A DNA stretch of 64,000 nt from Rhodoferax potami (GTDB lineage: Bacteria; Pseudomonadota; Gammaproteobacteria; Burkholderiales; Burkholderiaceae_C): contig NZ_JAVBIK010000001.1 of NCBI RefSeq assembly GCF_032193805.1, positions 806,001-870,000 of the forward strand, in the 5' to 3' direction. Position 1 is the first letter of the stretch; each line of letters begins with the position of its first letter. Shown piece by piece: positions 47,099-49,017 of the stretch. Below the pieces are notes generated by a model, which worked only from the letters and a program-made list of their open reading frames with translations, searched no databases and had not been told where the DNA came from. The translations under genes were made by a program, and so were the position numbers.

Positions 47099-48121
47099 TC
47101 AGGCTCCGTAGCGTTGGCGCGCCAATGCGGCACCTTGGGCGAGGGCCTCTAGCTTTTTGGTGGCCACCTCGCGGCTCATGGGAGCGAGACCGCAGTTGGT
47201 GCAAGGGAAGATGCGATGGCGCGGCACATGCTGTAGCGCGACGCCGATGGTGTCTGCCACCTGCTCGGGGGTTTCAATCACATCGCTGGCGACATCGATC
47301 ACGCCCACCATGACGTCCTTGTCTTTGAGCAAAGCCATCAGGTCCGGCGGCACATGCGACTGGTAGCACTCCAGGCTCACTTGTTGGATACTGCTGGCCG
47401 CCAGCGCGGGAAAGACCTGCGCGTATTGGCGCCACTCCTGGCCAAGGGTTTCTTTCCAGTCGTTGTTGGCTTTGATGCCGTAGCCATAGCAAATGTGAAC
47501 CGCCGTGGTGCAGGTCAGGCCGCGGGCCGCAATCTCGAGGGCCTGCACACCCCAGTCCACCGCGTCTTGCATGTAGACATTGAAACCCGGCTCGTCGAAC
47601 TGGATGATGTCCACCCCATCGGCCTGCAGGGCGAGGGCTTCCTGGTTCAGCAGCTCGGCAAACGCAAACGCCATGGTTTTCTTGTCGCCGTAAAAACGGT
47701 CGGCCACGGTGTCCACAATGGTCAGCGGGCCGGGCAGAGTGAATTTGAGTTTTTTCTTGGTGTGGGCGCGGGCCAATTGGGCTTCAAACGCGTGCACCCG
47801 GCCTTTGAGGCGCAGCGCTGCGATGACCTGGGGGACCTGGGCGTCGTAGCGGTTGTTACGGATGCCCATGGTGACTTTGTTGTCGAAGTCGATCCCTTCT
47901 ACCTGCTCCAGAAAGCCATGCACAAAGTGCTGGCGGCTCTGCTCACCATCGCCTACAACATCAAGGCCCGCGTCCTCTTGGGCTTTGATCCATAGCAAGG
48001 TGGCATCTGCCTTGGCTTGTTGCAGGTCGGGGCCGGCCAGTTTCCATTGGGGCCAAAGTTTCTCGGTCTCTGACAACCAAGAGGGTTTGGGCAGGCTGCC
48101 GGCAATCGCGGTTTCGAACAT
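47099..48121 (-). CDS. Core MetE-like cobalamin-independent methionine synthase
   Basis: 340 residues, equal to the catalytic C-terminal half of MetE without its N-terminal folate domain. Zinc and thiol ligands are visible as His and Cys in VHICYGYG, Glu in SLECYQSH and Cys in PCTNCGLAP. Such short proteins transfer methyl groups to homocysteine using a donor other than long-chain folate. One group (MesD) needs a partner, MesX, which I do not see here. The start has AAGGAG upstream. It is the first gene of a pair with the serine hydrolase. Confidence 0.75.
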   Translation of the reverse strand: MFETAIAGSLPKPSWLSETEKLWPQWKLAGPDLQQAKADATLLWIKAQEDAGLDVVGDGEQSRQHFVHGFLEQVEGIDFDNKVTMGIRNNRYDAQVPQVIAALRLKGRVHAFEAQLARAHTKKKLKFTLPGPLTIVDTVADRFYGDKKTMAFAFAELLNQEALALQADGVDIIQFDEPGFNVYMQDAVDWGVQALEIAARGLTCTTAVHICYGYGIKANNDWKETLGQEWRQYAQVFPALAASSIQQVSLECYQSHVPPDLMALLKDKDVMVGVIDVASDVIETPEQVADTIGVALQHVPRHRIFPCTNCGLAPMSREVATKKLEALAQGAALARQRYGA

Positions 48122-48144: not shown

Positions 48145-49017
48145 TCAGGGAATGTCGCGGAAATACGGTGACAAGTGTGCCCCACAGTGCAGGCAATAGC
48201 GCGCCTCGGGCAAATGCCCCTCCGTCAGGCATTCGTGGCAGGTGCGGGTGGTGGCGGGCGCTGGGGCTCCGCGCAAAGAGGCCATCTCGGACGTCACGAT
48301 GCCGGTGGGCACCGCCAGAGTGCCCCAGCCCAGCAACATCATGCAAGAGGCGATAAAGCGGCCCAAATCGGTTTTGGGCGTGATGTCGCCAAACCCCACT
48401 GTGGTCATGGTGGTCACCGCCCAGTACACCGAGGTCGGGATGCTCGTAAACCCGTTGACCGGGCCTTCGACGACGTACATCAACGTCCCCATGACCAGCA
48501 CAATCATCAGCACCGCTGACAAAAACACCGAAATCTTGCGCCGGCTGGCGGCCAATGCGCGGGCCAATGCCTGGTATTCCTGCACATAGGCAGTGAGCTT
48601 GAACACCCGGAAGACGCGTAACAAGCGTAGCACCCGCACATCAATCAGGGCGGAGACCTCAGGCACCAAGAGTGCCACGTAAGTGGGCAGCAAAGCCAGC
48701 AGATCGATCACCCCGTAAAAGCTCAGGGCATAGCGCATCGGGTGCCGCACACACAGGAGGCGGGCGACGTACTCAGCAGTAAACAGGAGCGTGAACACCC
48801 ACTCCAGCACCTCGAACCAGATGCCAACCCGGTCAGCCACCGCGCCCACGCTCCCCATGGCCACCACTGCCACACTGACCAGAATGGCAAAAATGAGGCA
48901 CTGGTCGAACAGCCGCCCGGCACGGGTATCGGCTTCAAAAATGATGGTGAACAGCTTTAAGCGCCAGCCGTCTAGCGGTTTACCGAGGTAGGAAGAGGTT
49001 TCTGTGGGCGTGGTCAT
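48145..49017 (-). CDS. Voltage-gated-type K+ channel with a C-terminal zinc ribbon
   Basis: About 290 residues, six-span ion channel. The S4 helix is basic (DVRVLRLLRVFRVFKL), the pore has the K+ filter TTVGFGD in SVYWAVTTMTTVGFGDITP, and the gate helix is MMLLGWGTLAVPTGIVTSEM. After it come two CxxC pairs (CHEC and CLHC) in the last 40 residues, a small zinc ribbon unlike most bacterial Kv channels. The ATG at 49017 is chosen; the open frame to 49086 adds unrelated residues. The gene ends 23 bases before the MetE-like gene, which follows it on the same strand. Confidence 0.85.
   Translation of the reverse strand: MTTPTETSSYLGKPLDGWRLKLFTIIFEADTRAGRLFDQCLIFAILVSVAVVAMGSVGAVADRVGIWFEVLEWVFTLLFTAEYVARLLCVRHPMRYALSFYGVIDLLALLPTYVALLVPEVSALIDVRVLRLLRVFRVFKLTAYVQEYQALARALAASRRKISVFLSAVLMIVLVMGTLMYVVEGPVNGFTSIPTSVYWAVTTMTTVGFGDITPKTDLGRFIASCMMLLGWGTLAVPTGIVTSEMASLRGAPAPATTRTCHECLTEGHLPEARYCLHCGAHLSPYFRDIP

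Follow-up and report, generated by a model that had tools for sequence, protein, structure and literature searches.

Described channels closest to the locus

The voltage-gated potassium (Kv) channels of eukaryotes (Kv4.2/Kv4.3, Kv1.3, Kv2.1 and Shaker) have the same six-helix voltage sensor and pore as the bacterial channel described here, which is encoded in a 64,000-nucleotide stretch of Rhodoferax potami DNA, hereafter the window. Its nearest solved sequence is Kv4.2 (1.1e-26), with further matches to Kv1.3 and Shaker and, further off, to 6uwm, 2a0l and 1orq, the last three of which we take to be KvAP-type prokaryotic Kv channels. The best PDB match of a profile search was Kv2.1 (8.1e-44), and the transmembrane region of Kv4.2 (E 9.1e-11) and Kv1.3 lead the fold matches of the whole model. 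Some animal Kv channels have an N-terminal T1 domain with zinc between subunits, whereas the window channel, with S1 starting at residue 32 of the AlphaFold2 model, leaves no room for one, and no T1 family is found among its 9 Pfam rows at E <= 1. Its S6 helix carries Pro-Thr-Gly, in contrast to the Pro-Val-Pro of Kv1. The same bare sensor-plus-pore is seen in 6uwm (PDB title 'Voltage-gated potassium channel'), which aligns with window residues 38-257 (1e-15), but this match stops at residue 257, ahead of the first ribbon Cys of the window protein. Likewise, no solved relative among 60 of the 172 PDB profile matches covers the ribbon, and none of them runs past profile position 259.

Cytoplasmic modules have been described on some Kv channels. 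In the excerpted text of a study on Kv3.1, a T1 helix that carries zinc-coordinating residues is described as a cuff directly beneath S4-S5 and S6, the zinc ligands being H77 together with C104/C105 (PMC9287412). As far as that excerpt describes it, this site resembles the putative zinc site of the bacterial ribbon in being cytoplasmic and under the gate and in using Cys along with His, but it is N-terminal and lies between subunits, whereas the bacterial ribbon is C-terminal with its four Cys within one subunit. Another short C-terminal module, SHOCT, is reported to occur on a few ion-channel proteins; it is a different domain from the ribbon, and the excerpted part of its description mentions zinc ribbons only for other proteins (PMC3581485). 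No published description of a ribbon-tailed Kv channel was found in the open literature searched, a scope that mostly left subscription journals and preprints outside. The component parts of the window channel are of known kinds, and their combination as a conserved subfamily appears to be undescribed in the searchable literature.

A Kv-type channel with a predicted zinc-ribbon tail

The features of the gene are collected in Table 1. The initial annotation had placed a Kv-type channel with a C-terminal two-CxxC tail at these coordinates, which are correct, and had left unsaid the strand, which is minus; both the channel anatomy and the zinc-ribbon signature that it named were found. The Pfam Ion_trans family is matched with E = 4.8e-35 and 121.3 bits, where the cut-off is 25. 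Across 75 aligned sequences the S4 charges R128, R131, R134 and R137 are invariant and K140 is nearly so, and their partners in S2 and S3 are present in the window channel as E72, F79, E82 and D105. The potassium filter signature TxGYG/TxGFG is present as T206-V-G-F-G-D211, and P237 and G239 of S6 are invariant in 75/75 aligned sequences. The Ion_trans match, the S4 charges, the acidic partners and the potassium filter together confirm, at the level of sequence, that the gene encodes a Kv-type channel subunit. The AlphaFold2 model built on the 75-sequence alignment has a mean pLDDT of 88.5, and the tail beyond S6 (residue 250) is non-helical in it.

Table 1. Coordinates within the window of the channel gene, its predicted parts and the next gene.
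Feature	Position	Strand	Remarks
Kv-type channel gene	48145..49017	minus	290 aa + stop; ATG at 49017, stop 48145-48147
S4 charges R128, R131, R134, R137, K140	48598..48636	minus	spacing: every third residue
Selectivity filter region T203-D211	48385..48411	minus	TMTTVGFGD; G208, G210, D211 invariant (n=75 alignment)
S6 gate helix, residues 217-250, with P237-T-G	48268..48369	minus	AlphaFold2 model
Linker, residues 251-259, S6 to first ribbon Cys	48241..48267	minus	
Predicted zinc ribbon, residues 255-282	48172..48255	minus	C-x2-C-x11-C-x2-C with loop Gly-His; from conservation, Pfam and ribbon-only model
First CxxC pair, C260/C263	48238-48240, 48229-48231	minus	
Second CxxC pair, C275/C278	48193-48195, 48184-48186	minus	followed by Gly
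Next gene, MetE-like	47099..48121	minus	23 bp downstream of the channel, same strand

The first Cys of the tail, C260, lies ten residues past the end of the predicted S6 helix. Zn_Ribbon_1, DZR and Zn_ribbon_3 of Pfam have in common with the channel tails the signature C-x2-C followed by C-x2-C-G-x2-L; the channel ribbon differs from these families by a conserved Gly-His loop, with the His kept in 89% and the Gly in 76% of 179 ribbon-bearing rows. When tails were scanned alone (scan A3, 41 tails which, like the 75 sequences of alignment A2, are a chosen subset leaving out four ribbonless proteins), the Pfam double zinc ribbon (DZR) was matched by 41/41 ribbon-bearing members at E <= 0.1 (best 3e-7), Zn_Ribbon_1 by 37/41 (best 1.1e-6) and Zn_ribbon_3 by 32/41 at the same threshold. 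The window tail itself reaches 19.1 bits against DZR (cut-off 27.3) and 24.0 bits against Zn_Ribbon_1 (E = 3.2e-5), and thus stays just below the curated threshold of 25 of the latter. A ribbon-only model has core blocks with a mean pLDDT of 91; its structural matches are weak, with Foldseek E of 0.64 or worse and a best VIA-align Z of 3.8 over 40 residues (rmsd 3.1). Among the matches listed, the best of these weakly scoring folds are mostly RanBP2-type/NZF fingers, solved with partners such as Ran or ubiquitin.

The gene following the channel resembles, we presume, a MetE-type protein, and is probably functionally unrelated to it. Neighbours were clustered by similarity over 92 loci, some with short flanks and with the channel's own antisense frames set aside. 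The largest family was the MetE-like one, present in 11/92 loci, namely the window, nine Comamonadaceae/Rhodoferax/Polaromonas/Ramlibacter records and one more genome of the window's family. Since the best recurring neighbour is found in just these 11 loci, the neighbours are silent on channel function, and an operon or neighbourhood logic was rejected as a guide to it.

Conservation of the ribbon

The family was assembled as 184 distinct proteins, comprising those that match the window protein with at least 40% identity and more than 150 bits, together with four hand-named enterobacterial rows; a distant ribbon group (see below) is outside the set. Absence of the ribbon or loss of its Cys residues among close homologues, which the initial annotation had named as evidence against its proposal, was looked for in this set: all four Cys are kept in 179/184 proteins, and the remaining five are L203, with a Cys-to-His exchange at the second ligand, and four members of one Variovorax-type clade that are without the ribbon. 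The pattern that would have spoken against the proposal was therefore not seen, this clade excepted. In agreement with this count, all four Cys are invariant in the 75-sequence alignment, a chosen subset without the ribbonless rows in which identity goes down to 43%. Source sets that partly overlap gave similar counts, with four Cys in 40/41 close relatives from the window's family, in 77/80 loci from genome contigs (the best 80 of 592 confirmed stretches), in 6/6 plasmid-record members read and in 29/30 Bacteroidota members read. Named members from eleven phyla keep the four Cys, those outside Pseudomonadota being 44-54% identical to the window protein. A chance origin of the four-Cys tail is ruled out by this conservation.

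The geometry of the tail is conserved along with its Cys. The two CxxC pairs are separated by 11 residues in 179/179 ribbon rows, and the S6 proline and the first Cys lie 17-43 residues apart, with 20-25 in 153/179, a combination that fits a rigid small domain held on a short leash under the gate. Around the ligands, 96% of the 179 rows have Ala three residues ahead of the third Cys, all have F, Y or H directly ahead of it, and Gly after the fourth Cys and Leu three residues beyond are each found in 96%. The Cys pattern is all-or-none in relatives, which fits a shared metal site. From this pattern together with the single Cys-to-His swap, we infer that the tail is more readily explained by a metal site than by a disulfide switch.

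Distribution across bacteria

A close relative (at least 46% identity) was found in 41/150 genomes of the window's family, the window's own included, and 40/41 of these proteins end in the ribbon; the nearest named relative belongs to a Rhodoferax MAG (91% identity). In 398 genomes of the window's phylum, Pseudomonadota, a profile search with the ribbon included returned 59 close matches followed by a gap, and 58/59 reach the ribbon, extending to model position 277-278 of 279, the ribbonless exception being in genome G122. Because the first models contained the ribbon, so that selection by the ribbon was possible, the same 398 genomes were searched with a model of the transmembrane part alone (A4), whose sequences came from ribbon-bearing members. 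This gave 59 matches at E <= 1.9e-79, with a gap to 2.6e-58, at the 59 places of the first search, and a selection of the channels by their ribbon was thereby rejected. Tails were read for 34/59 of these matches, and four Cys were seen in 33 and none in G122. In Bacteroidota, 73 matches (E <= 5.6e-99) in 72/198 genomes all reach the ribbon, and two partial matches stop short of it (G563, model positions 12-214; G558, 98-252). The tail is thus less exceptional than the initial annotation had hinted, being present in 58/398 genomes of the window's phylum and 72/198 Bacteroidota genomes.

Named ribbon-bearing members were also found in Calditrichota, Rhodothermota, Planctomycetota, Ignavibacteriota, Thermodesulfobacteriota, Myxococcota and Bdellovibrionota; many members are MAGs, so single phylum assignments may be wrong. 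Records of a plasmid collection with a ribbon channel come from Pseudomonas aeruginosa, Salmonella, Klebsiella, Deinococcus, Bacteroides and Acetoanaerobium (Bacillota). The annotation of 18 matching plasmid records reads "ion transporter" in 12 and has nothing at that place in 6. In the Salmonella and Klebsiella records (L178:3977-4813 and L179:3998-4825), the channel is flanked by oppF and an HI1450-family gene. When the Salmonella gene was used as query in a DNA search, 3/5426 E. coli genomes were matched, none of them covering 80% of the query, and this rarity in E. coli may be one reason why the family was overlooked.

Origin, loss and related channel groups

A tree of 95 hand-chosen proteins was built without the tail; it was computed quickly, some of its branches are long, and its support values are limited to SH-aLRT. 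In it, a branch with support 98 sets apart 66 full-ribbon rows (59 of the subfamily and 7 of the distant ribbon group), among which L203 with its Cys-to-His exchange was counted, and the opposite side of this branch holds 13 rows without a tail motif and 12 rows with a single CxxC. The four ribbonless rows form one clade nested among ribbon rows, and their sister, L039, keeps the ribbon on a long linker. As far as the sampled proteins go, the tree shows one origin of the ribbon with one loss. Because of the conserved tails, the outcome of the transmembrane-only search and the grouping in the tree, the ribbon is, on these comparisons of sequence, the mark of an old and widespread channel subfamily.

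The ribbonless Variovorax-type channels (L040, L093, L096 and L098) have a common basic tail, R-L-T-P-[AS]-A-R-R-R-A-L-A-Q-H-R-R. They keep every sensor and filter residue examined, with one Thr ahead of the filter differing, and the ribbon is therefore probably dispensable to the channel fold and probably an added module.

The distant ribbon group (L158, L160-L168) has 29-36% identity and a C-x2-C-x10-C-x2-C motif soon after S6; four Cys were seen in 10/10 members read, which often occur in several copies per genome and mostly carry family code f39. At E <= 0.001 the window's genome (4.0 Mb, 3 contigs) has one other matching stretch, which encodes a more distantly related channel (29%). This second channel (G000:C1:2290864-2291142, L002) has a charged, coiled-coil-like tail without CxxC.

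A separate Kv group has just one knuckle, in most cases CPHCG-x-x-L, close to the very end of the protein (L043, L157, L169, L174, L215-L217, L220-L223, L225, L226; L238-L240, L265-L272, L274-L276). Searches with an alignment of 13 members gave 8 matches in Bacteroidota at E <= 1e-95 and 12 in Pseudomonadota at E <= 2.2e-95, of which 5 and 3, respectively, were already part of the alignment. Exactly one CxxC was read in all 8 of the former and in 11/12 of the latter; the remaining match, L273, is the same place as L174, which has one CxxC. Weaker matches are mostly without CxxC or, in Bacteroidota, belong to the two-CxxC subfamily. With one CxxC per subunit, a four-Cys zinc site is possible only between subunits. 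The ribbon and single-knuckle channels might accordingly be considered together, as a broad class of bacterial Kv channels with a minimal zinc or thiol ring at the gate, made either of four ribbons or of single knuckles joined between subunits, in which zinc loading or the state of the thiols would influence the gate, as an independent counterpart of the animal T1 ring; we regard so general a scheme as doubtful.

Possible roles of the ribbon

We give somewhat better than even chances to a zinc-loaded, mostly structural ribbon that sits under the gate and contributes to assembly or gating. The gene product would be the subunit of a homotetrameric, depolarisation-activated potassium channel whose sole sizeable cytoplasmic part would be the C-terminal ribbon. 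Each subunit would bind one zinc via its own four Cys, about ten residues beyond S6, and the four small ribbons would hang directly below the gate, where packing with one another or onto the S4-S5/pre-S1 surface could tune assembly or gate opening. This would place the ribbon where some animal Kv channels use a zinc-bearing T1 ring; the Kv3.1 ring, as described in the excerpted source, is a precedent for zinc under a Kv gate at the cytoplasmic face (PMC9287412). A structural zinc ribbon is favoured because the all-or-none Cys pattern and the Cys-to-His swap fit a metal site. Sensor and pore residues that are invariant or nearly so, the constant spacing of the CxxC pairs, the DZR matches of all scanned tails, and the transmembrane-only search and tree also speak for this reading. 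Several observations weigh against it: the window tail falls just under the Pfam cut-off, the ribbon model has weak structural matches and the models are of a single subunit, the loop His at 89% may exceed a purely structural need and could mean a partner or sensing site, and the loss in one clade indicates that the ribbon can be done without.

The tail might alternatively be a regulatory sensor, in line with the coupling to zinc or redox state that the initial annotation had suggested, in which zinc loss or thiol oxidation alters the gate so that potassium efflux reports zinc or redox stress, a tentative possibility that draws on the presence of two CxxC pairs per subunit near the gate by sequence. 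Desulfobacterales, Bacteroides and Acetoanaerobium are lineages of strict anaerobes, and the intact ribbon in all three, like the Cys-to-His swap at a ligand position in L203, speaks against such a sensor; taken together, these two sequence observations lean away from a purely oxidative switch. Nor does any neighbour gene recur enough to suggest zinc or redox control.

It is rather unlikely that the ribbon serves for localisation, or as a patch on which a partner protein in the cytoplasm docks, and has little direct influence on gating. The partner-bound fingers among the fold matches of the ribbon model offer mild support at weak scores, as does the conserved loop outside the ligands, with its His and Ala (the His, again, as mild support), and the distance of the ribbon to S6 is not strictly fixed. 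However, no partner gene recurs beside the channel, and the family is spread patchily over many phyla, so that a universal docking partner is hard to name.

That the tail has no role and is a dispensable remnant is highly improbable, for although the ribbonless clade has lost it with the channel intact, four Cys held across eleven phyla at the identities given above are unexpected of a neutral tail.

Returning to the structural zinc ribbon and its possible part in gating, the Variovorax-type members, with the channel but without the ribbon, constitute a natural control. RCK and cyclic-nucleotide domains are far above 25 residues in size. Were the ribbon to gate the channel, its roughly 25 residues would make a much smaller cytoplasmic gating module than either of these domains, and the family would offer a simple system for zinc or thiol control of a voltage-gated pore.
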